64,000 nucleotides of DNA from positions 248,001 to 312,000 of the forward strand of contig JAVTLE010000003.1 in the NCBI GenBank assembly GCA_033439295.1, given 5' to 3'. Positions within the stretch are counted from its first letter, which is position 1. Every line of letters starts with the position of its first letter. A program made the translations under genes and the position numbers. Below are positions 1 to 61,123 of this stretch, piece by piece. This DNA comes from Deuterostichococcus epilithicus. Lineage: Eukaryota > Chlorophyta > Trebouxiophyceae > Prasiolales > Stichococcaceae. The notes below the pieces were generated by a model. It saw nothing but the letters and a program-made list of their open reading frames with translations, did not search any database and was not told the origin of the DNA.

Positions 1-1207
1 GCAGGTGCGATTGCTTCACACAATTGCTGTTCCTCCATGCTGTGCCTCTGAAACAGTCTGTCGGTCCTGCATCGTTGTCGGCCGGCGCCATCAGCTTGTC
101 CACCTGATGCCAGGCGCTCCCACAGGTGCACATGGTTCAGCACACCCAGGATTGAACAACCTGTTGCATGTCACTGCCTCCCCCTTGCTTGGTCCCTCAA
201 GCCAACCATTCATCTTGCAGTCCTGTTTTCAGCCTTTTGCCCCCCCCGATGCAGTTGGCATTATGTGTGGGGACTGCCGTCCCCGCCGTACCATGTTGCA
301 GTATGTCCGTTGCTGAGTTGCCGCACTGTGTTCCTGCCGCTGCAGCCGGTGCCGACGGCTGTCCAGGCGATGTCGGTGTTCGTCGGCCACGGCGAGTCCG
401 ACCCGCTGGTACCGGTGGCGCTGGCACGGCAGACGGCCGAGGGGCTGAAGAAGGCTGGTAAGGTCGCTTCTCTCTGACATTGCCGAGGTGTCGGTAGTCC
501 TGAACCCCATTTCCTAGGCCTGTGCTCGGCTGACGACTCTCGCTTTCGTGCCTCCCAGTTGCATTGAGAAGCACCTGGACTCCTTCCCTGGTCTCTGCAC
601 TTGCGAATAGTGACCAACGCCTCATAAGTACCTGGCAACAACCCGCAGCATTTGCGCGCCGTGGAGCTGCACACGTACCCCGGGTGTGGGGCCCTTCCCA
701 CCACTATCATATATGTTGCGAATATGGCCACAAACCTCGATACGTTACCATGCAGGACTGCGCGCCACGGAGCTGCACACGTACCCTGGAGTTGGCCATT
801 CTACCAGCCCGGGCGAGCTGCAGGACCTGCGGTCCTTCCTGCTGCGCGTGCTCCCAGAGGCACCACCCACTAGGTGCGATCGCGAGAAGGCGGCTGTGGC
901 TGTGGAATGGCTCTGATGAACCGGGGATGCCGCGCAAGGGGCTGCCGGGGCATGCGAGACTGAGGCGTGGCTAACAGCATGATTCTCATGGCGTTGATCG
1001 TTCGTCTTCTGCTGGACGTCGTTGCTGAAAAACGCTGCACAGAGCTGCCAGGACTAAAGCTGCCTGCCCCTATGCTGCAGCGAGGACGTTGACGCAATGT
1101 CGGTGAAGGAGCTGCGCTCATTCCTGGCCGGCCGCGGCGTCTCCACGACAGGCTTCCTGGAAAAGAGCGAGTTCGTGTCTGCTGCGAAACATGCGTTGCA
1201 TCGGTGA
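1..1207 (+). CDS. Acyl-protein thioesterase (3' part) with SAP-like C-terminal domain
   Basis: Serine hydrolase of the phospholipase/carboxylesterase family, which removes palmitate from proteins. Only the C-terminal half is in the window. Exons: probable end of an exon at 1-4 (GCAG followed by gtgcga), then 346-457, 756-873 and 1081-1207 (TGA). All joins are in phase (1, then 2). The first full exon carries the catalytic Asp in VGHGESDPLVP; the second carries the catalytic His in YPGVGHSTSPGELQDL, typical of acyl-protein thioesterases. The nucleophile motif must lie upstream. After LRVLPEAPP the last exon adds about 40 residues (MSVKELRSFLAGRGVS, then GFLEKSEFV) resembling SAP-like or MANF C-terminal helical modules, which ordinary thioesterases lack. 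The phase-2 join (AG plus C) supports one reading frame. An intronic copy of exon 756-873's start lies at 649-690. Family call is firm; the role of the tail is inference. Confidence 0.82.
649..690 (+). repeat. Intronic copy of thioesterase exon 5' edge
   Basis: A decayed direct copy of the start of exon 756-873. TGCGCGCC, then GGAGCTGCACACGTACCC, is shared with the parent 106 bp downstream. An AG acceptor-like CCGCAG precedes it. After the tyrosine-proline-glycine codons the copy diverges and loses the GHS catalytic segment, so it cannot replace the real exon. Confidence 0.8.
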
Positions 1208-1253
1208 CAGGGACACGGCGGGAATTGGCGGGGATCGGAAGAGCTCGGGCGCA

Positions 1254-4216: not shown

Positions 4217-7200
4217 TCATGACCTGGCGCCTGTGTTAAGAGCCGCCAAAGCGTCCTGACCTTGCGCGTCGCGCCCCAGCGGCGCGGGCGCCGCCGCAGC
4301 TGCGGCCTTTCGCTTGCGCTTCGCTGAGCCATCCCGCGTCCCACTGCCGCCATGCTGCCTCTTGCCTCGGCTGCTGTTGCCGCCATTGACCGCCGCCTGC
4401 ACGCCCACACTGATACCCTCTGGGCTCTTGCGCATTATTGGTATACAATAACGGTTGCGAGAGGCAATCTGTACTGGGAGAGCAAATGGAGGATGGAGTG
4501 TGACGGTGGTGGCAAAACGGCAATGTGACGACACATGCCACACACCTGCTTTGGCTTGGCCTTGTCACGCTTGGTGCGGCGGGCGGCCGCAGCCTGCTTT
4601 GCAGCAACGCCGCTCGTGGCGGCGACGCGGCTGTTGTGCAGCTGCAACGCCGCGGCCACCACTGCAGACATGCCGCTCCCTTGCATCCACCGTGTAAGCA
4701 ATCCGCGTCAGCCACACAGCCAGTGCATAGCAGATGTAGCCCAAAGCCGTCATTTGCCTGCCGCGTACCTACTGACAGCGGTGGAAGCCTGCTGCATGCC
4801 AGAGTAACACAGTCGGAGGTAACATGCCGGACGGAGGATGTGCAGCCCAGCACAACATTCACCTGGCTGCTGCGCATCCGCTGCAGCGCCGCCGACCGCC
4901 CGCGGCGGCGCCTGCGGCACCGCCGGTAGCATGGCGGCGGCGCCCGAGGCGCCACCCGTGAAGTATTTTTGACTGAAGCCCGGCCGCAGCGGCTCAGACA
5001 GCAGCTGCGCCAGCTCCTGCGGAACCAGCAGACACTAAACTCAGCATAAAGCACGTATGGAAGATTTTATCTGCATGACTGCCTGGCAGCTGACGTTATG
5101 AAGACTCATGCTTCAGAGGACATCCTGAGAGGCTGCAGCGAGATCAGGGCGGACCGCCATGGTTGTGCATGTGCCAACGCCTGCCAGCCGCATGCCATGA
5201 CGACCCTCTTTGCGCGGCCTCAAGTCCCATACATTGCCCAAGAAACAGCCTCCTGCAAACCCTTTCCGTTCTTCATGTCCCCCCTTGCCCCATATTCTCC
5301 GCGCTTCCCCACCTGGCGCAGCGACGCCTCCTCCATGTTTTCGCCCTCCCGCCCGGCACGCTTCATCCGCCGCAGCAGCTCCCGCCGCTTGCGCCCCTTT
5401 GTGATCTCGCCGTCGGAGCCAACCTCGCCATCCTCCAGCTGGATGCCTGCACAGGGATGTACGGCTGTCAGTCATTGGTGGCGAAAGTTGTCTGAGGACG
5501 TTGGATGGGTCACTGGCTGACTGATGCAACATGAGGCAGTATCGTCTGAGCAGCGTGTCTAGGTGGCCCGACTCCGGCATAGCGCGGCGCCGGGAGCAGG
5601 TGACAGGCGCGGCGAGGGTGTTGACTGGATTGAGGATTTGTGCACAACACTCAAGCTACACAGGCGACCGCCACAGCGCCTGCCTTCCGACACTGCTGCG
5701 CCCATAGCCCTTCGTCGGGGCATAGGGGTTGGATTGGCAGCTCCCTCGTCGTACCGACTTGCCAGTAACTGCACAAGCTGCATCCGACTGATGACACCCC
5801 CCTCCCCCCCCGACCAGACGCCNTTNCCTGCAATGCCTCTCCCCCGGAGGCACAACAGCTTTGTCCGAGACGCACAAGAACGCACACAGGTCCTTGAAGT
5901 GCTGCTAAGTGGACAAGAAGTGGCAGAGCGGCCGACGTGCACTGAAGGCGCACCCAGGTCGGCGGCGGCAGCGGCCATCCACTTCTTGTCAGCGTGCTTC
6001 TTGGCGGCGGAGCGAGCCACGGAGTCCAGCCGCAGCGCAATGCCCACGCGCTCGTGGCACGCCGGCAGCAGCCCCTCGTCCTGTGCGATATAAATGAGCA
6101 GACATTTTGTGAGACGTCCTGAAGTGCATGCCAACCGTCAGTGATCCCCGCCGGCACATGCCCGGCGGGGCCCGCAAGGGCACGCATCAGCATCCGCCAG
6201 GCAGCTGGCCGTCAGCTTCCAGATGGCTCAGTCTTGGCCGCATGAATCAGGCCAGAATCAGACAGAAGCAGGCAGGAAGCAGAAAGCAGGAATCAGGAAG
6301 GGGAGGAGCTCTCACCACCGGGAACTCGGGCGGCGCGGGCCGCCCCAGCGCCTTGAGCAGCGCGTCGTAGCGCCGCGAGTCCGCGGGCGTGACCAGCGCA
6401 ACGGCGATGCCGTCCTCCGCGGCGCGGGCGGTGCGCCCCGAGCGGTGCACGTACAGGTCCGCCGACGCCGGCAGCTGGTAGTGCACCTGCGCGGGACAGG
6501 GCTTTGGGTCGCACGGCTTGAAAGGACGCAGGACGAGCGACTGTGGGGCGGGGTCGGCGCGCCCCGAGCGGTGCACGCACAGGTTTGCTGGCAGTTCAGA
6601 GTGCACCTCTCACGCGTATACCTTCAAAAGGTCAATCAAAAAAGGAAGAGAGAACTGCTATTCGATGACAATTCGAAGCAGGCTCAGCAGTGCTGCAGCA
6701 GCGCAGTGAAATGATGCGTGACCAAACTAGCTTGTGGGGCGCCCTGCCCTGTGGGGCGCCCTGACTAGAGCCCCCGCACGCAACACACAGGTCGCAAGGA
6801 GCTCAGGGCGACTGACAGCCCAGGTTCACGGAGCCGCACCACGCAGCGGATGCCAGGCACGTCCAGGCCACGGGCGGCGACGTCCGTCGCCACCAGCACG
6901 CCGTTTGGTTCCCGCTTGAAGCGGTCCAGCGCCTGCGCAGCACCAACAAACTCCATTGCCGTTACCTGCCATCGCCCGCATCCTTGCAGAGGTCCGAGGT
7001 GCAGCACCAGTCGCATGCTCCTGGCACAAGCGCTGGCCAGATGGAGTGCATGGCACAGCGACCAGTGGCCGCCGGCCAGCGGGCAGCGCCGCCCTCGGCT
7101 GGGCCTCAAAAGCCTCACCTTGAGCCGCTGCCGCTGCTGCTGCGAGGCGTGCAGCGCTATGGCCTTGAGCCCCAGGTGGCTCAGCAGCGCCGCCAGTCGC

Positions 7201-10200
7201 CGGGTGGCCGACACCGCGTTGACGAACACCAGCGTGCGCCCCGGGTGCTTCACCTGCCAGCAGTGCATGATCTACATCACAGCGGCCACTTGCTGCCACT
7301 TGCTGCCACTGGCTGCCTTGCTGCACACAACGCCTCAGCTGCAGCCAACCATCTGCAAACAGTGTCGCGAGCGCGCTCTTCTTTACGTCCGTCGCAAGGA
7401 AATGGCTACCGCCTCCAACACAGCTGGCAAGAGCGGTGCAGCGCCCGACCGGCAGCGACAGCGGCATGCAAAAGCAGGTTCTTGGAGAGCTCACCAGGAG
7501 GTAGTACAGCAGCTCGTCGCGCTGGCGCTCGTCACAGCGCAGGTGCGCCTCAGACAGCCGCGACGCCATGCGTGAGGTCTCGCTCGTCAGGTCCACCACC
7601 TGGGCGAATGCATGGGCGGATGTAGGGATTTGAATTTAGGATCAATCTGGGGCGAGGCTCGGCATGGGGCCAGCCTTCACGGCAGGGGTTCAGCCGCCAG
7701 GAATGTATTCAGCCTGGCAGCCTCAGGGTGAACGAGCGATAGAGCCCCGCTTGCTTCATCCCCAAGTGTGTGGGGCCGGCACCTTGGGGCGCTCGCCAAA
7801 GGGCACGGCGTCCATGAGCGCGTCCAGGCTGCCGCTACCGCTTGCGCCGCCGCCGCCTGTGCCCCAGGCGACGAGTTTCGACACGGGTCAGCCACAAGAC
7901 CGACAACACTCAGACGAACCAAACCGGACAGTGGCACAGGCTGACCCGCCGCCCAGGGGCCAAGGGGCGAGGCCCGTTAGGTCCTGTACGAACATGCACA
8001 GGCAACGAGCGAGGAAAACACACGGCTCTGTGCGCAATGGCCCACCCTTGCGTAGCCGCCGGCGCAGGCTCTGCGGCAGCGTCAGCGTGGCGGAGAAGAC
8101 GAACGTCTGCAGCGGCCGCGGCCCCTTCCGCAGCCGCTTCCCGTCACCGCCGCCACTCTGCGGCGCAAACCCTGCCGCCGCAGCCGCATCGGCCTCGGGC
8201 ATGCTCGTATCGCTGTCAGAGCCGCCGCTGGCCGTGTCCTTCTCCGCCGCCTCGCCATCGCTGCTCGCGTCGCTGTCCGACCCGCTCGCGTCAGCCTCCC
8301 TGTCCGAGCTGCTGCCTGCTTTGGCGCCGGTCCCGGCCGCCGCCGCAGCAGCGCCGCTGCCGTCGCCGCGGTTGGCGACCACATACGCGATGATGTCGCC
8401 CAACTCCTGTTGGGGCACAGAGGCAGCTTTTGTACCAGCCAGCGATGAGGGTACGTGGGACTGGTGGAAAGATGCGCAGCACAGCATCTAGAGTGGCACC
8501 AAGGACCGTGATGTATCGACCCAGATCAGGAACGGTCTCGCTGGACGTGCGCTATGTCGGCCGCCCAGCATGTGACCATCTCTCAGTCCGGAGGCGCTTG
8601 AAGCACCGACTGGACTCGCCTGGCATGGACCTGCTGCACCATGCGACCAGCCTCGTCCAGGACCAGGAGAGCCAGAGACGCCAGCTGGATGGCGGGTATG
8701 GGGGTGCATGCAGCTGGGATGCTTGCTGTCACACATCTGAGATGGCTTTCTGCACTCGCCTGGTAGTGGCCCTGCTGAACCATGCGGTCCGCCTCGTCCA
8801 GCACCAGGAAGTCGAGGGACGCCAGCTGCGTGAGGTGCGCCGATGCGCCGGTGCCATCCTGCATGAGGTCCCACAGCCGCCCGGGCGTCGCCGCCACCAG
8901 CGCCGGCTTGCGCGACAGCACCCGCTCCTGTGCCACAGCGCGGAGGCAGGTGCTCATCGAGGAGTCGGTTGGTGAGCGAGGAAGTCGGGGGCACATGGTT
9001 TGAACCAATTGCCTGTCGCCGCACGTTTGCCGGGTCTCCGCAGCGGCACACCTCCTGTCGGACATCCAGTCTGTTTCGAGCCCGACTACCCGTGTTGCAG
9101 AGGCGCACTGCGCAACAACAGCAGAATGGAGCGTGCAAAGCAGCCTAACTCAAGGAGAGTACCCACCTGCTTGACGGCAGACAGGCCGCCCACGATGGCG
9201 GCGCTGCCAATGCCGCACGGCCCTGCGATCGCCCGCAGGTGCTGCTCCACCTGTGGGAAGGATGAGAACGGCACAGATCAAAAGCGGCACACGCAAGTTG
9301 GTCAATCTGCGGCACCCATGCAGGCACAGAAGACGAAAAGGCACAGTGTGCAGAGTTCAGAAGTGTGCGGGTGCTGTCACTGCCAGCTCGTGTGTGTGCA
9401 GCAGCGTCTGGTTGCGTGGCGCGTCTCAGCATGCACAGCTGCACGTGCCCTGCTTTGACATGTTGTCTCCCTGACACGTGCGTCTCCCATTCGTCTGCGA
9501 TGTGTTGCCGCACAGCGACCGCCGCACCTGCAGCGCCAGCTCGCGAGTGGGCAGTAGGACGAGGCCACGCAGCGGCGAGGGCGGCATGCGGCTGCGTGGC
9601 GGCAGCCCTGGGCAGCCGGCGCCCTCCGCCAGCAGCTGCTGCAGCATCGGCAGCCCAAACGCCAGCGTCTTGCCGGAACCCTGTCGTGAGTCGTGAGACA
9701 AGCAGTGAGCAGGTTTCCTCAGTAACAGCACTTCCGTGCGCATCGCCCTGTGCGGCAGCACGGCACAGGTTGCGATACATGGCGTCCCCGCTCTGAGATG
9801 CCCTAACAAGATGCCCTAACAGCCAGCATTTGTGCACATTGGCAGCAGGTGTCACTGTTTGCATGTCGTGACCATTGGAGACGGCTGCGGGTGGGGTGTC
9901 GCCTGGGCAGCGGCCCGCAGCAGTACCATGGAATCACATCGCTGTTGGAGGCCGGCCCGCCGGGGGCGCCGAGAAAACCTCTTTGCACAGTAAAGCCATG
10001 CCGGGCAGGGCTGCCACAAAGGACAGCCCTGTCCGGTGCGCACAGGCGGCTCTACCCAGAGTGCAGGCCGGCCCCATAGTGCATGTCAGACCAACTGATC
10101 CACAGGCGGCCAGCAGCTGAAACATTTGGCGCATGAAGGTGCACACCGACTCGCGGCTCTGCATGAAGCTGCCCCTCACCGTCTGGGCGGCACCAATGAT

Positions 10201-12234: not shown

Positions 12235-12619
12235 GTTGAACTTGCCCTTCGCTCAAAAGATGTTCGGTGTGGCTCTTCTCCAACGCCGATTGACAAACGG
12301 CCGTCACTGGACGACTCGCACATGGAACCTAAGTATTTCAGCGCGCTCGATCAAAGTACACTGTGGCTTGGAATGCTGTCTGTTCTTCTGCGTCGGCGCC
12401 CGTTCCGGAACAACGAGATCCAGGCTGCTGGATGCAGATGCATCGAGTTGCATGTCTTGGACCTAGGCGCACGGAGGTTGCTGCGCAAGGCACAATTTGC
12501 AGTTTGCACCGTTGTTCGAGGAAAATCTTCTTCAAATTTGTCACTAGAGCGAGCGCACGACAGGAACGGGCATACATAGCGAATTAGGGCGCACCACTAC
12601 CGCCTGCGCGGCAGTGGGC

Positions 12620-13810: not shown

Positions 13811-18646
<4,836 letters not shown>

Positions 18647-22300: not shown

Positions 22301-23773
22301 CTGGACGTGAAGGCCTCTCCCATGCATGGGCGCGCCCCCAGATGGTGCAGACTTCGAAGGGGGTTTGAGCCGGCGAAAGGCAGGCGTGCAGCCTTGTCTG
22401 TACAATGCGGCGCACCTCGGCGGCGGTGCCCTCCAGTCCATACTGATCCAGCCCGCCCGGGCCGTACAGCTCCCCCGCAAAGCGCAGCCACTGTTTCGCA
22501 CGCCGCCACACCTGCGGCACCACGCGACAAGGGCCGTCACCACCGCAGCCCGCCGCCTGATGCCCTCGTCGTCAGCGTGTCCGGCAGCGCCGCCCCCCCG
22601 CATTCACCCTGCCGGGCCCCAAAGCCCGGCCTTGCAGATTTCAGAGAGCCAAGATGCCGCTTCGCTGCACGTGCGGCTCGGTGGCCTCCCCAAGGGCGGC
22701 AGGTGCAGCATCGACAGGTAGTGGAAACACGCCATGGCCGCGTTTGCTTGTGTGCCCAGGTCCCGAATTCAGGCTGACGTTTGCAGCCACGAGTCGCATC
22801 TGCACCTGCGGCTCGGTGGCCTCTGAGGGCGGCAGGTGCAGCAGGGACTGGTAGTGGAAGGAGGCCATGGCGGCCGCCAGCGCGCGGGCGACGTCCGGCT
22901 CCGCCATCTGCTCCGCGCTGAGGCAGTTGCACGCCACGTAAAATTCCTCGATGCGCCCGTTGCCAAAGGACACCTGCATGTGGTCAGGGACCCGTACTGG
23001 ACCTCCAAGGAGGATGAAGGAATCTTGTCGAAAGCAACATGTCGTGTTCCAATGTTCGATTTGCCTTCCTTCTAGCGACATGCTGTGCCCGGCGCTCGAG
23101 CTCATCAGCGGGTCCTCACCAGGAGCTTGGGGCCCATGCCAGCGCGCGCGACCGTGCGGAAGATCATCTGCTCGTAGTCGCGACTGAACAGGTCGTCCGG
23201 AATGTTGCCGAAGACCCGCGCCAGCGCGAACAGTTTCTGCACACCCCGAAGTGCATTGCATGCTGGATTTCAGCCGGCCGCCGGAAGCGCAGCTATTCAA
23301 GCGCTGACACAGTCGCCGGATGCTCATCGACCATGACGAGCGGCTGCGTCGGGCCTCTCTGAGTCGGTCGCACCGGTGTCATGTACCTCAGGGCACAAGC
23401 GCCCCATGCAATGCAGACAGTGCCGCCACCTCACATGACCCACCTCAGGGCCGCGCTGGTAGCGGCAACGGTATATAAGGTTTGTCATGGCGCCCGAGAG
23501 CTGCGAGACTTTCAGGTCCGACTCCGTCGCCTGCGTGCGCGCATGAAGCCATTCAACACAGTGCCTGTTCACAGCCTGTGCGCATGCACAAAGGTGCTGC
23601 CAGCACTTCGGGGTGCCACGAGCGAGGCTGGGAGCTTCAATCGCTGCGCAGACATGACTCACCTCCTCCCAGCCGCGGACCTTCACCAGCATGGGCATCA
23701 GCGCCGGCAGCGGTTCCTTGAGCAGCACCGGCACATCCACCTCCTCATCCGTCTGGGTCTCCGTGACCGCCAT
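19352..23773 (-). CDS. Choline/ethanolamine kinase
   Basis: Phosphorylates choline (or ethanolamine) with ATP, the first step of the CDP-choline route to phosphatidylcholine; cytosolic. Twelve exons, 450 aa: 23773-23663, 23530-23444, 23236-23120, 22973-22806, 22511-22416, 22131-21976, 21648-21496, 21105-20987, 20780-20702, 20467-20360, 19710-19648, 19447-19352. Motifs: LSGAMTNLIYRC near the N-terminus, ARVFG, then the Brenner phosphotransferase motif FCHNDLQCGN (catalytic Asp215) and LIDYEYSGMN (Asp319), NHWCEYAADYD, and SHLVWGLWGLIQ followed by SSEIDFDYVAYAQQR near the end, all as in choline kinases. Exon 7 inserts 51 residues rich in Ser/Pro/Arg between the two catalytic motifs. Introns after exons 9 and 11 use GC donors. 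Whether it prefers choline or ethanolamine cannot be told by eye. Confidence 0.93.
22662..22732 (-). repeat. Intronic copy of choline kinase exon 4 3' edge
   Basis: Copy of the exon end 135 bp downstream in the transcript. It keeps GAGGCCACCGAGCCGCA and CTGCACCTGCCGCCC. The donor CAG|GTGCAG has become CACGTGCAG. Confidence 0.85.
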
Positions 23774-37504: not shown

Positions 37505-40500
37505 TCACTGCATGATGTCGTACGCCTTGAAGGCCGCCTTGAAGCGTTCCGTCCTCGCCTTCTCCTCCTCTGACGACACCGCGCACTTCTTCCAGTCCGC
37601 CCTGCGTGACACAAGTGGTATCGTTTGCCTTCGAAACCCAGAATCAAGCCAGTCCTGAGTGACACCCAGATTGTGTTCCTACAGCCAGGCACAGCCGCAG
37701 AAGTTCCTTGCCCCCGAGGGAACGTCAGCTGCCACCACATACCCGGACACGGACACCCAGCGCCCTGCTTGCTGTGCCGCACAATGCGATTGGCCCATGG
37801 TGAAGGCGCACCGGTCGGGCACGCCGGCGATGGCGGCCGCGACATCGCGCCCGAAGTTAATGGGGAAGCGCTCGCCGCGCGGGATGGGGTGCACCAGCTG
37901 CGTGCCACCCGGCAGCACCACCCGCAGGTACTCTGCCTCGCCCACCGCCTCCCGCAGCGCCTTCCTTGCCGCCTGCGAGAGGGTACGGGAGGGTCTGCGA
38001 CAGGGCCTCGAATCGAGGGCTGGTCGCAAGGCAGGTTGAGACGAGAGGGTGTACGTGGCGCCGCATGTTCGCAGGCGCGTGGCTGGCAGGTGCAGGCGGC
38101 GTTGCGCGCCAGTTGCGTGCCGGCTGCAGGGCAGCGCGACTGACCCCAAAAATCGTCCAGGGCGACATGCCACTCCGGTATGGGCAGCCAATTCATGACC
38201 TTGCGCAATGCTGCCAGGCAGGGAGCGAAGGATCTGCACCTCGCCGCTGCTTCTGGGGAGCTCTGTGAACACCGCCCCGATGGCCGATGCCGCCTTGTCA
38301 AACACCTGACGCAGGGGACATGGTTAGCCACATGACATGATGGCCAGCCCCATATTCTGCACCACAAGCAGCCGCTGTCCGGACGTGGCCGTCGTACCAA
38401 GCACGGATGCGGATGCTGTGTGCTGGGAGACGGCAAAGTCGGCGACGGTACTGCACACGTCCCAGCGGCGGCACTGGCAACAGCCACACACTCCCCACAG
38501 AGGCAGCAGCGCTGACATGCATGCACGCAGGCAGGCGGGCGGCGCTCAGGCGAGGCCTGTCGTCCAGGATCCAACTCACCGCCCTGGCTGTGGACGCGGC
38601 CGACGCGGGGGTCGGGACGACGTTGATGTGGCAGTGGTTGCCGCCGGACTTGCGGAACGCCATGAAGCGCTCGAAAGCCACTGCCTCCTTACCCTGCGGT
38701 TCAGGCATGGCAGAGCCTCCAGACTTGCCTTGATGGCGCACATGCTTTGCTGCGCACCAGAGCCACGTGGAGCGGCGGCCGCCTCCAGGTCTTTGCCAGC
38801 ACGCATGAAATGGGTTTGAAGGGTTTCATGGTGGCTGCTGTGGGCAGGTCGTGCGCAGTCCTGGAGATGCCTGCCGGGCGCAACATGTGTGTGTGTCATA
38901 CATACAGTGCAGTCCTGGAGAGCCCCAGCCATGCCACAGTGTTTGCAACAGAGGGACGGGGCTCGCCCGTGCAGCAGAGCAGCACCGCAGCGCGCATGGG
39001 TGGCGCTCCGTCTCCTCGTCGTCAGGGGAGACTTCACGATGTGACTCACAATGCAACGAAGCGAGGCAAGGCGGACTCGGGTGTCGAACTCGCCTGCGCA
39101 GCATAGCAGGACTGAAGGGCGGACAGGTAGCGCTCCATCTCCGCGTGCGCGCCCGGCGGCAGGCCCAGGCTGTTGGGGAAGTGTTCGATGGGCAGCACCA
39201 GCACGTGGCCGTCGGCGATGGCGCCCTTGTCGACCGCAATGTAGGACTCCTCGCCTGGAATCAGGGTTATGAGAAACACCTCGTGGCCGTCACTCATGCG
39301 GACGACAAGCAGGGAAGAGGACCGCGGAGGAACAGGACACCAGCACGCCCGCGGTGGCGCACGTATCCACTGCGACATGGCCCTTCTTGCCTGGCGACAC
39401 GAAGAAAGATGCTGCAACCATCAGCACTGCAGCAACGGAGGGAAGCCCCCCCTGATGTGAGCCCAAGCGAGGACAACAATTTGGGGTCAATAGCACACCA
39501 GGTTGTGGGAAGACACGTTGGCTTTTAGCGGTATGACAGACTGCAAGACAGAGACTTGAGTGCAGGGCACGGAATCGCAGGGCGTCCAGCTGCCCATGAC
39601 TCGCCGTGGTTGCGCTCAGCAGCGCAGAGACGGGCGAGCCACCAGATATGCACGTACTGACGCCGGTCACAAGCCTCGGTGTCGGCGCTGGGCGACACAT
39701 GCTCTAGACCGGCGAGTCTTACGTCTCCTAAAGGCAGCTCGATGCTCCAAAGCACTTGGCTCAAGCTTCACCGGAAGCAACACAAGGGTGGGGGAAAACC
39801 CGACAACCGACAACTCACACGGGCCGGCCAAGAGCTCCGTGGCGACGCCGGGGCGACAAGCCGGGTCGACATTTCCATGTCCTTGAGATGCCGCCATATC
39901 CCTGTGATGCCGCGATGTCCCTGTGGTGCACCGGGAGGCTCACAAGCACCACGAAGGCGCACCCACGCTGGCCACGAGCTCCACGTCGGCGCCAGGGTTG
40001 GACAGGCAGAACCAGCAACCGTCGACGGGCTTGCCCGCCGGCAGCGGCGGCGGCCCCGGCCGGTTCGCCGCAGCGTCCACGAAAATCTCCCGCCCCATAA
40101 GCTGCGAGCCGTGCAGCGCCAGCGCCCGCTGCACCGCCTCAGCGGAGTCGAACTGGATGTGGCCAAAGCCGTTCAGCTTGCCTGCGGAGCGGGGACGGCA
40201 CCAGCTTCGAGACGGTCCCGAGACTGCATGTCGACTGCATGTCGACAAGGTCGTTGAGACAGCCTGCTGCGCTTGCGCTTCAACTCCATGGCCCGTGAGC
40301 TGCGCAGCGCAAGATGTGTGAGGTTGATCCTTCGCAGTAGCCGTGCGGCCAGCTGGGCAAAGCCGGCGGATCACCCAAGCTGATGGAAAGAGGTCAGCAG
40401 TGTGCTGCTGCCGGCTGCCATGGCCTGTTTCGCGCCAGGTGCGCCCGAGACGATACGAGGACGGCCAAAGGGGCGTCCAGAAGGAACTGCACCCTTTGAA

Positions 40501-45181: not shown

Positions 45182-47668
<2,487 letters not shown>

Positions 47669-50600
47669 ATGGTGAAGGTCACGTTCAAAACGGTGCAGGG
47701 CAGCAACTTCCAGCTCGACCTGGATGCGTCGACCAAGGTGGCTGTCCCTGCCTCGATGCTGACGCTACGCGGATCGTATAGCTGACACTTGATGCTGCTG
47801 ATTCCAGTGACAGTAGACCGGCTGCGCCAGCATGTATGGACTTCCTAGGAACTTTCGATGACTTGCCAAGGTGCTTGCCTCCCACAAACGACGGACGCAT
47901 GTTCGTCAAACACACAGCGCTGTTGCTGACAGGTCTCGGACGTCAAGGCGGCCATCGAGTCGTCTCAGGGCTCGGGCTTCCCTGCTGCCAACCAAGTTAT
48001 CATTTTCTCGGGCAAGGTGGGCCGGCAGCTAGCCCCGCAGTCTTGCAGTTCCGGCCAGTGCTGCGGCGTCTGCGATTCAGGCTGCAGTTCTCCATCACTG
48101 AGTTCTTCCCTCGCGGCTGTGCATGCAGCATGGCACACTTGACGCATGGTGCGGGTTCCGCTCTTGCAGGTGTTGAAGGATGACACCACGCTGGCAGACA
48201 ACAAGGTGTCGGAGAACGGCTTCATGGTCGTCATGATCACGAAGGTGTGCGCATCAGCTTGGCGGTTATGGGAGGCCCCGCATTTGCTTTTGCGCTGGAT
48301 AGCTGCGGGTATCGAAAGCCCGTGCAAGGGACAGCACCTTCTTCCGCTGACGCTTCGCACGCCTGTAGGCCAAGCAGGCTGTACCTGCGGCCGCTACGGC
48401 CCCAACTGCGCCGGCGCGGGGGCCTTTGTACCCAGAGGTGTGGCCTGAGCGAAGCCCTTTTCGACGCTGTCGCAATGCAAGGTGCCTGCAGCATCGAAGT
48501 CACGACTGCGAAGTTCAACCCTCGTCATGCAGTCTGCCTGCTTGGTCGCTAGATGCCGGCGGCTGCGCCAGCGGCGGGCGCGTCGGCGCCCGCGGCTGCT
48601 GAGGCACCGGCCAGGTGAGCCCAAACAGACGAACACATGGCAGGCTGGAGACCACCGACTGCTGGCTGCCGCCCTTGTTACGCCGTCCTTCTGGTGCGTT
48701 CAAGGGACAATTTGCGAAGCATGCAGTGCGTGGCGTCCCTGCGAGATCGCACCATAGATCAGCTCCGTTGTTGCAGCTTACATGAGTCCTGCTGAGGGTT
48801 CTGGCGCTGCTGCACCAGCGCGGTGCCACCAGCAGCCACAGGCGTGCCGCCCTCGTCGGCGCACATCGCCTCGGAGTCTCCTGCGGCGGCGGCCGCGCCC
48901 GACGTCACGACAGGCGCCACGGGCACCGCAGCTGACCCGTACTCCGCATCAGCCTCCAGCCTGTCCACTGGCGCGGCGTTGGAGGGCCACATTAACCAGG
49001 TCGGAGAGGCTCATGCTCACCTGAATGGCACCCCGCAGTAGGATCGTACATCCACATGTTCACGTAGCTTTGCGTTGGCCTCCTGCCATTGCACCGGCAT
49101 TCAGGCCCTGTGCAGCTAGGACCCTTGGCCTCAGATGCTGACTGGCGTCATCCTGACGTGTGCTTCTGCTATGAAAACGCTTCGAGGTTCCAAACTCAGC
49201 TGGCATCACGCCGCCTGCCCCTCTCGCTGTTCGCAGATGGTGGAGATGGGCTTCGAGAGGGAGCAGGTGCAGCGGGCGATGCGGGCGGCGTTCAACAACC
49301 CAGACCGCGCCGTCGAGTACTTGATGACTGGCATCCCCGCCTCGGCTGAGCAGCCGCCGCCGGTGGCCGCCTCTGCCGCTGGCGGCGCTGGCGGGGGCGG
49401 CGGCGGCCAGGCCGCGAGNTCTGGTGCGGCGGCTGAGGTNGGCAGTGGCAGCGGCGAGGGCGGCGGCGAGCAGCCGGCGGCCTCGCAGCCCGCCGGCAGT
49501 GGCGGCCCCAATGCGCAGCCGCTGGACATGTTTCCTCAGGTGGGGCTGGGACCCGAGTCGGCAGTGCAGGCATTCCGCGGCACGTCTGCATGTCAGCCGA
49601 GCTGGCCATGGCGATATGTTTGCTGGCCCCTTAGGCAGTGGCTGGCCTGCTGTAATGCGCCTGAATGTCCGTTGTCGTCGGTTTTGCCTCACTCCTGATC
49701 CCTGCATGGCGCCATGCCCACCACCCAAAGTTGAAAGCTCAGCAACAGTTGCAACATGAATAGCGTTCGCAGTCACGGCAGCATGGCGCCGCTGAACTGT
49801 GCTCTCCACGCACCCGTGCAGGGGATGCCCAACTTCGGCGGCGGCGGCGGCGCGGCTCAGCGGGCGGGCGCGCTGGCCTTCCTGCGCGACAACCAACAGT
49901 TCCAGGGCCTGCGCCACGTGGTGCAGGCCAACCCGCAGATTCTGCAGCCCATGCTGCAGGAGCTGGGCAAGCAGAACCCGCAGCTGCTGCAGCTCATCAA
50001 CGCCAACCAGGTGGGGCGCCCTGCGCCCAGCTCTGAAGCCTCTCGCCTGTGCTTGGCGTCGTCCGGACTGCCTTGTGTTGTTGTCGTCGGGAGATGCCTT
50101 CCAAATGCAGGCTGGCTTTGTTTGGTGTCCGGTTCGCACTCCCAAAGCACAGACACTCATGTCCTCAGAAAGCCGCACCCCTCCCCCTGCCCCTCTGGTC
50201 GTGCATGTGCAGCAGCCTGCACGAGGTGGCCGCTTGATGTGGTCGTTTTCGGATGCGGCAGGAGGAGTTCCTGAGCATGATCAACGAGCCAGGTGGTGGC
50301 GAAATGGACCCGGAAGCAATGGCGGCGCTCGGCGGCCTCGGCGAGGACATGGACATTGGCGAGGGCGGTGGCGCACGTGCGCCTTACTTTCCCTTGAGAC
50401 TATCTCCCTGCCCCTCTCGTGACGCCCTGCATAACATGCACTCTCGGCGAGGACATGAACCTGGGCGAGGGCGGCGTTACATGTGCGCTGTCAGTCACCG
50501 AAGTAAGAGGAACAACAGCTTCTGCCAACCTTGCTGTACATATGCATTTGCATGTTGGTATGACGCCTCGAACCGTGCCGAAGCTTGTGAGGGTTGCTTG

Positions 50601-51030
50601 CATCTGCGGATTGTCTGCGCGCACATTGCTGCCCCACTTGGCCCTAGAATGGGCCCTGGCTGCGCGGCAACCAGGGCATAGCCTGCAGGGCCAAAAGCAT
50701 TGAATGCTGCAAAGTCCAGACCGTCACCTGCCCTGCGAACACCCAGCACATGCCCCGCCTCGCGCACCGCTGCTGGGTGCCACTCTGGGCTTCCGTCCCT
50801 GTGTAAACGACAGGTTCAAAGCACGCTGCACTGCAATTGCACTGCACGCTGACTGTTCTTGTTTGGGCGTCATTGCAGAGATAGCGGTGACAGAGGAGGA
50901 AGCGGCGGCCATCGATCGGCTACAGGGCATGGGCTTTGAGCGCGCGGCGTGCATCGAGGCCTTCATTGCCTGCGATCGCAACGAGGAGGCCGCCGCCAAC
51001 TTCCTGCTGGAAAACATGAACGACGACTGA
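47669..51030 (+). CDS. RAD23: UV excision repair protein RAD23
   Basis: Shuttles ubiquitinated proteins to the proteasome and stabilises XPC/Rad4 in nucleotide excision repair. Ten exons, 429 aa: 47669-47737, 47933-48016, 48170-48244, 48369-48437, 48553-48614, 48819-48999, 49237-49539, 49822-50010, 50262-50367, 50879-51030. N-terminal ubiquitin-like domain ([38 protein letters not shown], about 1-76), an Ala/Pro/Ser linker, UBA1 ([15 protein letters not shown], about 181-216), the XPC-binding domain ([20 protein letters not shown], within 282-344) and a C-terminal UBA2 ([19 protein letters not shown]). This is the full canonical order. Two ambiguous bases (near 49419 and 49440) fall in the linker after UBA1 and leave two residues unknown. 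Upstream it is divergent from adenosine kinase. Confidence 0.95.
50440..50485 (+). repeat. Intronic copy of RAD23 exon 9 3' edge
   Basis: CTCGGCGAGGACATGAACCT then GGGCGAGGGCGG copies CTCGGCGAGGACATGGACAT then TGGCGAGGGCGG of the exon end, 106 bp upstream. Reads [11 protein letters not shown] against [11 protein letters not shown], donor region included. Confidence 0.9.
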
Positions 51031-52867: not shown

Positions 52868-55800
52868 ATGGGGTCGTGCCTCAGCAAGACTGACGCTCAA
52901 GCCGGCGCTCGGTCCGGCACAACGGACAAGCCTGTGGGCAAGACAGCGCCCGATGGCCAGACGCAGGCCAGGGCAAGCCTCGGAAGACTCTCGGTATCCG
53001 CGCCGAGAGCGGGTGGCGCCGGTGGCGCCGCGCCTGCTGCGGCGCCCGCCGCCGCGCCCACCCCCAAAGGAGACGCGGCGGAGCATGCGGCACCCGCCGC
53101 GACTGCCACTGCAGTACCCGACGCCCCCAATGCGCTGGGGCATGCCGTGCCAAGTGCCGTGCCGGACGGCATGCCGCTCATCGAGGCCGTGGAGCCGGTG
53201 CAGAATGAGGCACAAAAGGCGGTGCTGGCGGGCCAGCCCTACTTGTCCAGCAAGGTTCGCACTGAGCTGCCTACCTTGCCTCGTTACCGGTCCAGCAGTG
53301 ACATGATGCCCCACCCGCGTCTCTGCCAGCCCTGCCGTCGCCTGCCTGCAGTGCACTCTGGGTGTGTCCAGACCTGGCGAGCCCCATAACCCTTTGCCTG
53401 CACCAGAGCGTCGAGTCCGTCGTGGTGGACGCTCCGTTTCACGGCTGTTGTTGCTGCTGATGGCTGGAGCAATGACTGGCATCGCTGCACCTGCAGTTTG
53501 GGCCGCCGAAGCCGCCGTTTCAGGAGGAGCGGCTGCTGACGGTCAACGCCATCAAGGCCACGCGCGACGGGCGGGCGACGGACCCTAACATCTGTGCGTC
53601 CCTGCTGGCAGGCTGTGTCCATCACCCCACATCGCCCCATTGGCACTGCAGTCGGCCGCCCCATCAATTGGCATGCCCCCCCATCTGTGCCTCCTGTCCT
53701 ACGTGCGCCCCCAGGTGTGGCCGGGGTGCCGCCGGGGTGGCGCAGTGTGAGCTGGTCATCTGCCCTGTTCACAAAGCATCATGCAGCTCCGGGCGGATGA
53801 TGATTCTGCCACGCTCCCCCATGTGCCTGCAGCCAACATCCTGGACCTGGCGGTGTCGGTCTTCAGCGTCGACTCGGCGGTGGTCACGCTGGTGGGGGAC
53901 GAGACCTTCACGGTGCACGCGGCGGCCGGCAAGCTGGGCCCCTACGCCGGGGCCGACCTCCCGTGGCTCATCGGCATGTGCGCCTACAGCATGACGCCGG
54001 CGCACCACGAGGTGCTGGTCGTGGAGGACATGGCCGCCGACGCGCGCTTCAACTTCGAGTGAGTTACGGGATTCGAAGTGTACAGCTCCTCCATGTCCTG
54101 ACGCCTGAGGTTGGGGTCCTGCAGGGGCTGGGCGGCCGGAGCGCGCTTGAATCTCGAGCCAGCCCCAGATGGTTATTATTTCAGAATTTGTGTTCCATGG
54201 CTCCCAGCGCCTTGCATGGCTGGTCCCCTCCAGAGGGCTACTCACATTGAAAAAAAATCAGCATGATGCCAACACACCACGATTTGTGTGGATGACATGG
54301 CCGCCAACGCGCTTTAACTTCCTAGAGGACTTTACCATTTTCAGTCCTGAATGCATTTTCTCCAGGCCTTGCGCTTTGCATTGTCAGTCTCCACTGGAAG
54401 GGCCTTTTAGTTTTGTGAACACACTGGCGGGTATCCTCACCCTCACCATCCGTCGTTGAGCCGTGCATGGTGCATTTGGCGCCCTGGCGCATGGCGCGTG
54501 CCAATGACACATATATTTCGACACACAGAACTGATGAGCGCTCCGCTCCACAGTCGCTTGTGCAGAGGAAGACGCTCCGGGATCCCGGCGCCCAGCACTT
54601 CGAGTTGCAGCCCTTAGAAACCCTTCGTGCCGGAGCTGCTGCCTTTGCCGACGGTCGCCAACAACGTGTGTCGCTCCTGTGCAGCTCGCGCGGCGGCTTC
54701 GAGAGGTTCTACTGCGGCGCGCCGCTCGTAGCGGCCAATGGGCACCGGCTGGGCACCATGTGCCTCGGCGGCTCGCAGCCCAAGACCATGAATGCGCAGC
54801 AGGTGCGTCCGGCTGCTTTGCTGGCGCTCAGCACCCAGCGCTTCGTGGGGCGTATTGGGGGGAGGCGGGCCGGAAGCCAGCTTGTCGCGGGTAGTGCAGC
54901 AGCCGGCGCGCACCCTGACGAGCGTGCGGCAAAGCGACTTTGCTGGCGTTTGCTTGGGTGTGCCAGGCGCCACTGACAAGACACATGAAAGCACATTGTC
55001 GTGTGCAAAATATGGGTGGAGTCTGGCGGGCAATCAGGGAACCGTGCGCGATGCACCAAACGTCCAAACCTGTGTGGTCAAGAGGCTCCGGAGCAAGGTT
55101 CCTGAACCCTGAACCCTGTACCCCAAATGCCAGATCGGCGTGCCATGTGACATGGCGGGGATGATGGTGCACTCGGCGGGGCGGCTGTCAGGGCGCAACC
55201 TTTTCAGACCCGAAACGTTAGACGCCCTGAAACTCTGGCGATGTTCCAGGTCGGCGTGCTGTGCAACATGGCGGAAATTGTGGTGCGCTCGCTGGAGAAG
55301 CAGTGGGCTCAGGACCAGTGGCAGCGGCACCAGGCCGAGGTGAGCAGACGATTGTTTTGTACGTGAGACCTACCGTCGAGCCCATGCATACGAGGCCCTG
55401 TTGCAGCCTGGCCCACATGCCACATGCCCACATACTGCACTGAGCCGCGCCACATGCATGTCCTTCTGTGCGGTGCTCAGTCTGCACGGTCCCTGCAACT
55501 CTGCACACGCTCTGGGTCGCCATGCAGATGTCCAGTACATCTGCTCCGTACTGCTTTGTGTTGCTCCGAGCCTGCGACTGCCCACTCTCATGCCTGGGGA
55601 ATGGCCTGAAGCCGGCTGCCTAGGTTCTGTAGCTGCGCGGCAGCATGCGCGATGCAGTGCCCTGCCGCACGAGCCTGCCAGGATCAAAGTGCAAGCCTCC
55701 AGTAGCCCGCGACCTGGTGCATTGCGGTGATGAGCCGCTGGGTTGCTGTAGGAGGCTCGCCTGGCACGGCGCCTGGAAGCATACCAGACGCCCTTCCTGT

Positions 55801-58800
55801 TTGTGGAAGTGGACAACGAGAAGCCGGGGTCCTGGGACATCGTCTTTGCCAACGACCGCGCCGCGGAAGTGGCAGGTGGGAAGCAGCGACTGCCACACCT
55901 GTCCGGGGGCAGCTCAATTGAGCCTGGGGTCTGCAATTTGCTCTGCCTAGAATCGTAAAGCCTGCGGGCCGGCTGCATTTTGCAGCTCGACATGGGCAGA
56001 AGACCCACAGGGCAACGGCATGGGCTTGCCATGTTCGCCAGGTTCAAGTGCCGCTTGCATTCCTGCGCTTCGCCTGACAGCTCGGAGTGCTGCAGGCTGC
56101 GTCGTGGACGCTGGAGCTCGCAAGCCTTTCTGGGAGCTCGTCAAGTCGGCCGTCGGCTCAGCGGTGAGTGCGGCTTTGGCGCCTCTCAGCTCAGCTGTGT
56201 TGTGTTGTGTTGTGCCGCCGCGCCCACAGCCGCTGTGCAGCATTTCTGGTGGCAGCACACCCTGCAGCGCACTGGCTGCGCATGTGCCTTCGCCCTGCTG
56301 CATGCCACCGCCGGGTGAGCCCCGCCAGCGTCCCGCTCGCAAAATATGCGGTGGCGGAGGGTTGCTGCCGCTCCCAAGGCGTCACATCCAAAGGACGTGG
56401 TATGCGCAAGTAACAATTGGGCCCAATGGCGCCGCAGGCGCCCTGGACGCCATTTGAGAGCGCGGTGCAGCGCGGGGTGCGCTTCACTGTCACAGGCATG
56501 CTGAAGGATTCTGCCGGCGGCCACGACGAGAACGAGCTGTGGCACCTGCACTTCCGGTGCGCTGAAGTGCGCAGGCACCGCTGTTGGGCGTGCCGGCGCG
56601 TGGTGACAGTCTCCATGCAACCCTCTAGCCTCTGTCTGAAACCCTCTCCCGACGCAGACCTGCGGCGAAGGATGCGCTCGACGCCCAGGCGACGCTGCTG
56701 GGAGTGCCGGCCCATGTGCCGAGCGGCAATGCCGTCAGCGGCGGCCGCTTCTACGCCGTCGAGATGTCGCTGGTGCCACCGCCCTCGCCGCACGGCGGCA
56801 GCAGTTCAAACGTCTGCAGGCGCGTTGTTCTGGCCGTCGCCCTAAGAGGCCACACCGCTGCAGATTCACAGTTTTTGCATCACAAAGAGCAACAACGGAA
56901 ATGTCATGCCACCCTGGCTGCCTGTCCCCAAACGCCGGCCCCGCCCATCACGTTGCACAAGACTCCTATCGCTGTAGGCCTCACACCCCCTTGACTGCCT
57001 GTCCCCAAGCGCCGGCCCTGCCCATCCCTTTGCACAAGCCACCGATCGTCTCAGGGCCTCACTCCCTCGCTACTCTCATTGCACTGACCTGCTGCCGCGC
57101 AGTGTGCTGATGGATAGCGGAGGCTCGCTGACGTCGCTGGCCCCCGCGGTCGTCCCCGCCTGCTTTGAGGGCCTGGAGCTGGGGCCACTGCTGGGCAAGG
57201 GCTCCTTCGGACGGGTGTACCGGGGTGTCTACCACGGCGAGGCGGTGGCCATCAAGGTGCGGAAAGACTTTTTGGAAATTTAATATTGGCCGGCCCCTCG
57301 CCTGATGATTCCGCTCTGCACCTCCCCCGACAGCTGCGGGCGCACCAACACAGAACGCCACTGCAGGGAAACAAATCCTCGGACCGCGGCTGCAGCCGCG
57401 GGCTGCATGCCGATGCCGCCTCAGAGCGCCTCCTGCTCGGCATACATGCCGGTGTATGCATAACGGTCGCATGTCCAGCTGCCACAAGCCTGATGGCGTT
57501 GACAGCTTGCCGGCTGGCAGGGCTGGTCTGCGGCTTGTGCCCTTTAAACCCTGACAAAACCCTGCCCGCAGATCATGGAGACCGACCGGGTGGAGATGAA
57601 CGAGGAGGGGGAGCCGCTGGAGGCGGTGCTGACCGGCAGCAAGCGCCACCCCAACCTGGTGTCCACCATCGGCTGGTGGGCCTCCTCTGCTATGCTTTTG
57701 CTGTGGCAAGCAACACACACATCGCACAACGAAAGTCGTGTTTTAAGCGCTTGCCGCACAGCGCCTCGTGGAGGCGGTGCTCACAGGCAGCAGCCAGTCC
57801 CAACCTGGTGTCCACCATCGGCTGGTGCGGCCCCACTTGCACAGCACCACCTGTAGCAGCAGGCCTTCCCAGTGCAAGCCGGCCCCTGTGCGCAACCGCC
57901 TAGCAAGCGCAACCCAGACCTGGTGTCCACCATCAGCTGGTGCGGCCCCACTGTCGGGTTATGTCCCGAGGCACTTTTCAACACCCCCGCCGTGTCCTGT
58001 GCTATGCACAGCCACATGATTCCAGACCCGCAGTGCCTCGCGGCAGCAGTGCGCACGGTTGTGGTGTTGGAAACCGAAACCTCACAGACTGACTCCTCTG
58101 CTGCGTGCGCCGCCGCAGGACGGTGACGTCGCCGCCGCTGCCATACCCGGGGGAGGACCCCGACAGCGAGGCGGCGCGCCTCGCCGAGCTGTCGCAGGAC
58201 GAGTCGCAGACCTGGCTGCTGCTGGAGTTTTGCGACCGGCCCTGCCTCCAGGTGCGGGGACGCCCGGGGTCGGGTCCGGGTCGCTGGGCGTGTGCATGTT
58301 TCGTGTGTGTGCCAGGCATGGTGGGGAGGGGGCGGTGGGTCTGGCGGCTGTCGGAGCTGCCTATTCTTGCCAGAAGCAGCAGCCACTGTGACGGCTTGCT
58401 GCCGCTGGTGACATTTCACTCGCTTGCAGGCATGCCGCAAGGTGGTTCTGCTGTTTGCCACTGCGGATTTCCAAGTCTACTCGTTGAAACACTGGCCTGC
58501 CAGAAGCTGATCAGTGTGTGCCGGCCAGGTGCGCTTGCGCAACGAACCCAGCAATGCGGACAATCCAGCCCTCCTGGCTGGACCATTGAACACACTGCTG
58601 AATGCTGCAACAGGATGCCCTGGAGCGGGGCGCCTTCAGGGTGCCGGACGCCGAGAGCGGCGTAGCGAAGCAGACCAGCCCGCCGAACATGGGCACCATC
58701 TGCGCCACCGCGCACGAGGTCGCCTGCGGCATGGCCTTCCTGCACAGCCAGAACGTCGTGCACGGCGGTGCGGCTCCTGGCTTGAAGGACATCATTCCCC

Positions 58801-61123
58801 GTCAAGTTCCGCTGAGACAAGGGGGAGGGTGCTGCACCTTTGCGTGCATTTGTGTGGTGAGGGGGATTGTCTGCTGCAGTCTCTCAGCCGTTGGCAAGGC
58901 AGCCGCAGGCCAGCGTCGGGGCCGGCTGCAGCGGCTCAGCAGGCGTCGTGACCAACCGTGGCCTCCTCTGGCCGTGTGCAGACCCTAACGCCCCCTGTTC
59001 AGTTCCTGGCCTACCCGGTGCCGACCCCTGCTGAACTCAGCGTCCTTCTCGCTCCCGGCCGCAGACCTGAAGGGCGGCAACGTGCTGCTCAAGAGCACGG
59101 ACAACGCCCGCGGCTTCGGCGCCAAGGTGGCAGACTTTGGGCTGGCGCGGCACATGGGCATCGAGGAGCGCATCCAGTCCAACCGCTATGGCACCATCAC
59201 CCACTGCCCGCCCGAGCTGCTGCTCGAGGGCTCCTTCAGCAAGGTCGGGCCGCCGAAGCCTGCAACCCCAGAATTTGACTCGGATGAGGCAGCCGCCGCG
59301 CATTGCAGTGCCGAGTCGGATGTGGAAATGCAAAGATTGGCCGGAGAAGGCAACCGGGGGTGTTGGGCCGCGGCGCGGCGCGAGAGAGCCCACCGCTTGG
59401 CGACAAGGGCAGTGGCTGGGCCCTGTGTGACCCCCTACTAGGTGCTCATGCTTTGCTGAGCCTGGGATGCAGTGCCAGGGAAAGCAAAGCAGTGGCTGGG
59501 CCGCTCCCCAGCGGCATGCTAGCGAGCGGCTTCTACCTGCCTCGAGCAGGACTGGGCGCAGCGGCGGGCACTATCGCAAGCGAACGAGGCCTGCGTGTGG
59601 TGTGGTGTCGGTGTGCACGCTGACCTTTCCCACCCTTGGGTTTCTCTTCGCAGGCGGTGAACGGCCGGCCTCCTGGCGTGCTGCTGGCGAGCCCTGAAGC
59701 CCTAAACCCTAAAACCAAGCACGCTGACCATCCGTCATCCGTGTTTCGTCAACCCGGGGGCGGACGGCTGGGCCGCTGGCGGTGCTTCAGTGGGAGCGGC
59801 TGCTGGCTGCTCCCCCCTGTCCTGCCTCCCTTCACTCTCGCCTGTTCCTCCTGTTCAGGCGGTGGATGTCTGGGCCTTTGGCGTGCTGCTGTGGGAGCTG
59901 TACCATGGCGCCCGCGCATGGGCGGGCCTCACCCACCCCCAGGTGCACCCTCCCTGTGCCCTCAGAGGCCCTCAGATACCCTCCAGGCGCCTCAGCGCAG
60001 CAGTGCTCCGTGCCTCCTGCATCCTCCCTGCATTCCCGGACGGTGCGGGCAGCTGGTGGACAGGCGTGCTGCCCCAGCTCCCGCGTTGTGGCAGGAGCCG
60101 CAGTCCCCAGTCTTGCGCAGCGTCTGCCCTCTCTTGTTGCGCTTTCTCTCGCTCTCATGCCCGAGCCGTCAACGCTTAGTACCCTGCTTCTTCCTGCTTC
60201 TCTCTGCGCGAATCATGCACCTCGCCGGCATCGCCAGCAAGCTTGGATCTTCGACCGGTGCGCGACTTTTGTTCCGCTTTTGGATCTTCCCCCTCCACCC
60301 CATCTTGTTCCCTAAATTCTACACTTCCCCAGGCGCATGCGCGCCGATCATGCACGCAGTGGGCACGCCGGCACGCACTGGCCTCTTGACCGTTCCGAGG
60401 CTCTGCCGGCGCACGACCTCCTCTCTGTTTTTCAATGGTAGATCTCTCCTCAATGATACATACCGTTATGCTTGACTGGTGCCGGTTCCCTGCTCCGCAG
60501 ATCATGCACGCCGTCGGAATTGCCGGCAAGAGGCTGGCCTTTGACCGCTCGGAGGCGCTGCCGGCGCACGAGACTTACTTTGCGCTGGCGGAGGCGTGTA
60601 TGGCGGTCAACCCTGCCGACCGCCCCTCCTTCGAGGCCATGCACCTGGTGGGAGCTCCCACCACCGTCAGATTTCAGTGTTTTGAGGCCTCGTTTGATGC
60701 GACCGTTCCTCCTTTGAGGCTCTGCAGCTGGTGGTAGCCCTTTCACCTTGTTGCGTGGGGATTCGAGGCCTCAACCTTGCATTTTGGGGCACAAGGCCGC
60801 CACCCTCGCTGGGACTGAAGGGAATTCGCACCGGAAGCATGGCCAGGGCAAGGATGGATTGCGCGCAACCAATCTGACATATCTGCAGTGTCTGCGAGGG
60901 ACCGTACGAGCAGGCTGCCGAGCTCTGACCAGCGCTCGCACCAGGAAGTTGTAACGAATGCTTGGCAGCGCCTTTGTGAGTACACCCGCCGATCAGTTGA
61001 CGGGCAATGGCGCAGGTGCTCAAGACGTCCGCAGATGCGTGGGAGAAGCTGAAGAAGGGACCCAATGGCGGGGCGCCGCCAAAGGACCTGAAAGACACCG
61101 ACTGCACACGCTGCGTCGGCTGA
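52868..61123 (+). CDS. Myristoylated GAF/PAS-like protein kinase
   Basis: Signalling kinase, probably membrane-attached: it opens MGSCLSK, a myristoylation/palmitoylation signal. Seventeen exons, 817 aa: 52868-53254, 53497-53593, 53833-54058, 54685-54802, 55250-55339, 55752-55875, 56096-56163, 56438-56556, 56658-56819, 57103-57256, 57572-57675, 58119-58251, 58614-58767, 59065-59243, 59859-59942, 60501-60647, 61016-61123. A GAF domain (about 160-276; NILDLAVSVFSVDSAVVTLV, FYCGAPLVAANGHRLGTMCL) follows an Ala/Pro-rich tail, then a helix and PAS-like segment (FLFVEVDNEKPG, IVFANDRAAEVAG). Kinase: GKGSFGRVYRG (495), VAIK (Lys515), HGDLKGGN (Asp646), ADFGLAR (Asp669), CPPELL, DVWAFGVLLWEL. HGD replaces the usual HRD. 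Fold resembles plant Raf-like/tyrosine-kinase-like kinases. Intron 9 has a GC donor. Many introns carry junction copies. Confidence 0.88.
54120..54335 (+). repeat. Two intronic copies of kinase exon 3 3' edge
   Basis: Copies at about 54126-54160 and 54287-54335 of the GAF exon end (54021-54065). The second keeps GACATGGCCGCC(A/G)ACGCGC and TTTAACTTC. They start about 98 and 265 bp after the parent. Confidence 0.8.
55124..55200 (+). repeat. Intronic copy of kinase exon 5 5' edge
   Basis: ATCGGCGTGCCATGTGACATGG against GTCGGCGTGCTGTGCAACATGG, 116 bp upstream of the exon, kept for about 70 bp. Preceded by a CCCTGAA-type short repeat. Confidence 0.85.
57755..57955 (+). repeat. Two intronic copies of kinase exon 11 3' edge
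   Basis: CCTGGTGTCCACCATC then (G/A)GCTGGTG recurs at about 57805 and 57919 after the real exon end; spacings about 150 and 114 bp. The first copy also keeps GGAGGCGGTGCT. Both keep the GCTG|GTG donor. Confidence 0.92.
59650..59716 (+). repeat. Intronic copy of kinase exon 15 5' edge with telomere-like tail
   Basis: CAGGCGGTGAACGGCCGG then TGGCGTGCTGCTGG copies the acceptor and exon start at 59856, 205 bp downstream. It is followed directly by CCCTAAACCCTAAA at 59700-59713, two units of the plant/Chlorella-type telomere repeat. Confidence 0.75.
60205..60435 (+). repeat. Two intronic copies of kinase exon 16 5' edge
   Basis: ATCATGCAC starts copies at about 60210 and 60348; the real exon starts at 60501 (spacings 138 and 153 bp). 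The second keeps CTGCCGGCGCACGA from further inside the exon. They read IMHLAGIASK and IMHAVGTPAR against IMHAVGIAGK. Confidence 0.92.

Follow-up and report, generated by a model that had tools for sequence, protein, structure and literature searches.

The 64,000-nucleotide window of the Deuterostichococcus epilithicus genome analysed here (contig JAVTLE010000003.1, positions 248,001-312,000, forward strand) is nuclear eukaryotic DNA of 58-65% G+C content, in which a subset of introns contains decayed direct copies of the edge of the adjacent exon. A custom gene finder (a generalised hidden Markov model, GHMM), run with a minimum exon length, a stronger intron penalty and GC donors permitted, predicted 152 exons and 141 introns in 11 models; 12 of the introns have GC donors. 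Ten of the 152 exons were taken out by hand ahead of counting: five that resemble copies (8631-8684, 15856-15912, 15983-16048, 17621-17710 and 57904-57939) and five doubtful terminal exons (1886-2044, 2322-2405, 2806-2936, 12595-12621 and 13464-13471). The DEAD-helicase copy at 8610-8707 had been mistaken for an exon by the GHMM. Of the 131 introns left after removal, the 128 between 60 and 1100 base pairs (bp) long were tested. Nine of the 11 models were submitted to Pfam, some incompletely and one split into two proteins (g6 and g9 were left out), and the families found were Abhydrolase_2 with SAP, DEAD helicase, Trypsin_2/PDZ, cyclophilin, choline kinase, methyltransferase, CwfJ/RRM, PfkB, UBA/XPC-binding/ubiquitin and protein kinase. 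Models that leave the copies out are backed by homology: an alignment running the length of the spliced DEG8 protein matches it to 4ic6, which we take to be the Arabidopsis chloroplast Deg8 (E = 2e-108), and the DEAD-helicase model matches 4kbf.

Intron-exon similarity was judged against 100 mismatched intron-exon pairs per intron. At a score of at least 100, a cut-off set after the null table had been viewed, donor-side and acceptor-side copies are equally frequent, with 10 intron sides each against expectations of 0.21 and 0.25; rows scoring 72-99 were tabulated and left uncounted. In total, 28 exon-edge copies lie on 20 intron sides (about 0.46 expected) of 18 of the 128 introns (14%), in 8 of the 11 models (Table 1), and there was no counted copy in models g6, g7 (adenosine kinase) and g9, which have 5, 7 and 4 introns. 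An initial scoring of 127 introns at a score of at least 30 gave 10 + 10 matches against 0.12 + 0.08 expected, and none in reverse complement. Self-BLASTN of the window (E of at most 0.01) returned 20 direct pairs, 19 of them spaced 70-272 bp apart; one direct and one inverted pair were distant, the inverted pair by at least 2 kb. The presence of direct exon-edge copies in introns, claimed in an initial annotation made by eye from the sequence, is thus borne out by a check at the level of the window. That account counted nine copy-bearing genes, a figure that holds because two of the copy-bearing models are fusions of several genes, but the HNH-like gene among them shows no HNH domain by Pfam in the submitted piece of g4. 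The window contains four ambiguous bases (N), isolated ones including 5823 and 5826, which marks the assembly as a draft and would be compatible with assembly error; the copies nevertheless diverge from their exons by 7-28% of aligned exon bases, with indels besides, and their number is far above that predicted from mismatched pairs, so that error or chance similarity is the least credible explanation of all.

The copies have a consistent geometry. When the own-side and far-side introns of the same exon are compared, copies are present in 17 of 170 and 0 of 170, respectively (p = 1e-5), which favours tandem duplication because contiguous duplication requires that geometry. The splice junction is crossed by 24 of the 28 copy alignments and lies within 4 bp in 27; on the intron side the alignments extend at most 20 bp at donors and 15 bp at acceptors. 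For the 19 nearest copies (the 101-bp intron excluded), spacing from the parent is 63-154 bp, with a mean of 113 and a standard deviation of 25, the exon part being 25-95 bp and the spacer to the true junction 30-87 bp. Arrays of two or three copies occur on six intron sides, and in most of these arrays the steps are similar in size; the clearest array of whole units is on the acceptor side of DEG8 intron 15420..16103, with steps of 121, 127 and 119 bp. The alignment printed for 15852/15979 in this region overlaps itself, an artefact, and was disregarded. Homology of the whole tandem unit is clear in DEG8 (the copy at 15968) and in the thioesterase-like gene, and the kinase-gene copies at 57763-57837 and 57895-57953 both have GT and share bases beyond the donor. 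The true splice dinucleotide is retained in 16 of 27 copies, about the level expected from general decay, and there is therefore no sign of selection for or against redundant splice sites. The introns with GC donors at 8760 and 39094 have copies that carry GC too. A DNA-level origin, as first proposed, is supported by the junction crossing and whole-unit homology; the accompanying statement that a splice site is present in each copy is too strong in view of the dinucleotides lost.

Introns with copies are long, with a median of 400 bp (n = 17) compared with 217 bp for those without (n = 111; p = 2e-5). Subtraction of whole units brings the copy-bearing median to 248 bp, similar to the remaining introns (p = 0.58), whereas subtraction of the exon parts alone leaves it at 320 bp (p = 0.006). 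This length accounting backs the growth of existing introns. In this set of 17, from which the 101-bp intron at 56557 is excluded, whole units amount to 3,106 of 7,134 bp, and the description of introns as built from copies is apt for these and not for introns in general, in which the copies themselves make up 1,715 of 35,266 bp.

These observations are probably, though not securely, explained by recurrent tandem duplication of short segments straddling a junction, which would have lengthened the introns. Segments of roughly 60-155 bp across one exon-intron junction would be duplicated in tandem, repeatedly and independently, with the splice site adjoining the exon body kept in use; through use of this outer site the protein would be unchanged, and the outer sites of DEG8 and the DEAD helicase do fit those of homologues. 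The inner exon edge, with its redundant splice site, would be absorbed by the intron, which gains one unit of length, and would then decay. Their detection would depend on the exon, in which one side of each duplication is preserved. The underlying lesion may have been paired nicks with fill-in, slippage or template switching. The classic alternative of intron gain from a duplicated exonic segment bearing AGGT, in which the intron is one duplicated unit, has one candidate, the 101-bp intron at 56557-56657, which may represent gain instead of growth. Copies in the remaining 17 introns adjoin their own edge within a longer intron, at a spacing below its length; 17 of the 18 introns exceed the nearest spacing plus remainder, so intron length does not equal the duplicated unit, and AGGT gain is a very improbable account of the pattern. 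The initial suggestion that introns commonly arise in this way is reduced to that single candidate, which does not itself follow the AGGT scheme.

Several findings weigh against simple tandem duplication. The length test is biased because long introns offer more target, and the length-weighted background median is 272 bp. Only 3 of the 19 nearest copies have a recognisable intron half, where 15.1 are expected without large indels and 11.9 with them; a separate estimate expects 18.3 of 27 intron halves where 3 were seen, and a wider search of the outer 220 bp for displaced halves still gives 3 of 27. A general inclusion of intron bases in the units is thus not supported by what is seen. The fairer simulation is the one conditioned on the divergence of each copy, the other run having included very young simulated copies of a kind absent from the real sample. 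A scan of lags from 50 to 169 found 10 exon-to-intron, 8 intron-to-exon and 1 intron-intron match (11, 12 and 2 at a looser threshold), whereas simulated unbiased duplication yields about 2-2.6 junction-spanning detections per intron-only one. Within arrays, copies descend separately from the exon without order of age: the near copy has 61 private differences and the far copy 55, against 12 shared (10 non-independent copy pairs, 435 shared sites; 7 of the 12 come from one DEG8 pair), and the nearest copy is the most similar in just three of six arrays. Copying of one copy from another is not supported by the shared differences, except at DEG8 15853/15968. The lone clear intron-only tandem duplication of the window, at 56909-57066, has a spacing of 77 bp and about 81% identity.

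Plain neutral tandem duplication is therefore insufficient, failing both the intron-half and the intron-only expectations in simulations. With 3 of 19 intron halves recognisable, the standard model needs an exon-derived half that decays twofold slower; when the intron half was given a doubled rate and larger indels, 3.3 of 19 were expected. If tandem duplication is retained, each unit would have been duplicated as one DNA piece, including units whose intron half can no longer be recognised, and the exon-derived half would decay at about half the rate of the intron half or receive occasional refreshment from the exon. Candidate causes of the slower decay are winner's-curse selection of slow copies, base composition, constraint and exon refreshment. 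The lost intron halves, rare intron-only repeats and star-like arrays indicate that the exon edge behaves specially, whether by slower decay, by exon-to-copy homogenisation or by edge-specific copying, and the concentration at exon edges noted in the initial annotation exceeds what unequal decay should give.

The main rival accordingly holds that exon edges are specially copied, with repair pasting an exon end and its splice site with little intron, or that they are refreshed by gene conversion while intron halves drift. It would account for similarity that ends within about 20 bp past the junction in the counted copies, for the intron half missing in 16 of 19 nearest copies, for the scarcity of intron-only repeats and for the star of 116 private against 12 shared differences with no order of age. 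Such a star is also expected, however, if the conserved exon directly sourced every copy, whole units fit the length accounting better, and steps are fairly even in most arrays. Patchy gene conversion finds no trace in the 28 copies, whose mismatches show no clustering into tracts (combined p = 0.78; 2 of 28 below 0.05), and we know of no repair mechanism that gives ends coincident with edges. This rival is a serious but rather doubtful one. In a broader version, exon edges would be lasting donors to their own introns through a directional, edge-specific process, either templated insertion of the exon end and its splice site or repeated conversion of the copies by the exon; decoy edges would be built and maintained at intervals of about 120 bp, and introns would lengthen across much of the genome. 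This version appears unlikely as well.

The decay of the copies bears on a further rival, that they are alternative or mutually exclusive exons under selection. Exon-copy differences at codon positions 1, 2 and 3 number 72, 86 and 128 (494, 494 and 486 aligned), and the excess at the third position, which is greatest among the 13 copies closest to their exons (18, 20 and 48; the subset was picked post hoc), would suit such exons, as would the retained splice dinucleotides. Codons with a single difference are synonymous in 86 cases and nonsynonymous in 96, unlike those of a constrained exon, random change predicting about 26% synonymous. The copies reach one splice junction only, and 19 of 28 contain indels (hand count). 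The nearest spacings are spread evenly over the three remainders modulo 3 (6, 7 and 6, hand count), and in-frame inclusion of the copies was rejected on that basis. Alternative exons are hence quite improbable. The codon pattern fits freely decaying copies together with silent-site drift in the exon, and the raised third-position share in the most similar copies is suggestive of something more; the claim that synonymous sites of the exon outrun the copies, only suggestive too, is not used here. Among the 28 counted copies, identity reaches at most 0.90 over the alignment and 0.93 over exon bases only, which does not support the first description of the process as ongoing. None is near-identical to its exon, so either the process has paused or tandem copies young enough to be near-identical may have been collapsed in the draft assembly.

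Table 1. Introns with counted exon-edge copies (positions in the window; spacings and steps in bp)
Intron	Position	Strand	Donor-side copies (spacing)	Acceptor-side copies (spacing)	Remarks
Thioesterase-like	458..755	+		645-703 (107)	Copy of next exon's start; intron half of unit recognisable
DEAD helicase	6487..6839	-		6547-6608 (120)	
DEAD helicase	8407..8759	-	8610-8707 (147)		GC donor, retained in copy
DEG8	15420..16103	+	15457-15485, 15491-15559	15734-15802, 15853-15927, 15968-16052	
DEG8	16264..16914	+	16324-16409, 16487-16542, 16590-16635		Steps 135, 132, 98
DEG8	17362..17817	+	17420-17467 (86)	17699-17773 (122)	
Choline kinase	22512..22805	-	22648-22741 (133)		
Cyclophilin (CYP28)	24916..25263	-		24954-24989 (63)	
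Model g4	30549..30729	+		30610-30660 (115)	Left exon 30516-30548 weakly predicted
CWF19L1-like	38694..39093	-	38962-39019 (127)		GC donor, retained in copy
RAD23	50377..50878	+	50443-50488 (106)		
Kinase gene	54059..54684	+	54107-54158 (98), 54259-54321 (272)		Farther copy more similar
Kinase gene	54803..55249	+		55130-55197 (116)	
Kinase gene, 101 bp	56557..56657	+			Start, 56558-56618, matches next exon +15 to +75
Kinase	57676..58118	+	57763-57837 (150), 57895-57953 (263)		
Kinase	59687..59858	+		59756-59828 (102)	
Kinase	59943..60500	+		60342-60416 (154), 60198-60257 (288)	
Kinase	60648..61015	+	60700-60747 (83)		

Other features of the window were observed in passing. One model (346-1207) joins Abhydrolase_2, an esterase-like C-terminal part, and then a SAP domain. 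An A/T-rich simple repeat lies at an exon edge inside the adenosine kinase gene (46003-46089). The window has no tRNA or Rfam matches. TGTAA is found within 400 bp of the 3' end in three of eight genes, with 0.13 expected per gene, which is a weak hint of a green alga.

Introners resemble the process described here in acting on many genes. They form dispersed families in which the introns are alike, whereas each copy here is specific to its own exon, 19 of the 20 direct pairs within the window being local. In plants, paired-nick repair or patch-mediated breaks give direct duplications of roughly this size, which to our knowledge have not been reported to be specific to exon edges. Intron gain through tandem duplication has been reviewed (PMC3443670, citing Hellsten 2011; Gao and Lynch 2009); in that model, local tandem duplication likewise provides splice sites, but an exonic segment bearing AGGT is duplicated and the intron equals the unit, whereas here existing introns grow. 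The closest parallel is the potato RdRp gene, where a tandem genomic duplication runs across an intron-exon boundary, the parent junction supplying the splice signals (Ma, Lan and Niu 2016, PMC4974935). There, a single event produced a new intron together with inserted exon sequence, with only ten nucleotide differences; an 83-bp tandem duplication confined to an intron is present in that gene as well. The duplications in D. epilithicus resemble it in crossing the junction and differ in yielding no new intron in 17 of 18 cases, in recurring in 8 of 11 models and several times per intron, and in having mostly unrecognisable intron halves. A search of the open-access literature, with subscription papers outside its scope, did not turn up any description of exon-edge copies recurring within introns; one junction-crossing case has been published, that of potato, and no report was found of many in one region.

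Gain of intron length, unlike gain of intron number, has few traceable cases. Because the exons are conserved reference copies, they allow each event here to be dated and its geometry to be traced. Should the pattern prove genome-wide, there would be hundreds of events in which splicing tolerates duplicate splice sites 60-155 bp apart, and tandem duplication as a source of intron sequence and cryptic splice sites would become testable. The loss of intron halves, if confirmed, would point to an edge-specific process outside the usual list of intron-gain mechanisms.

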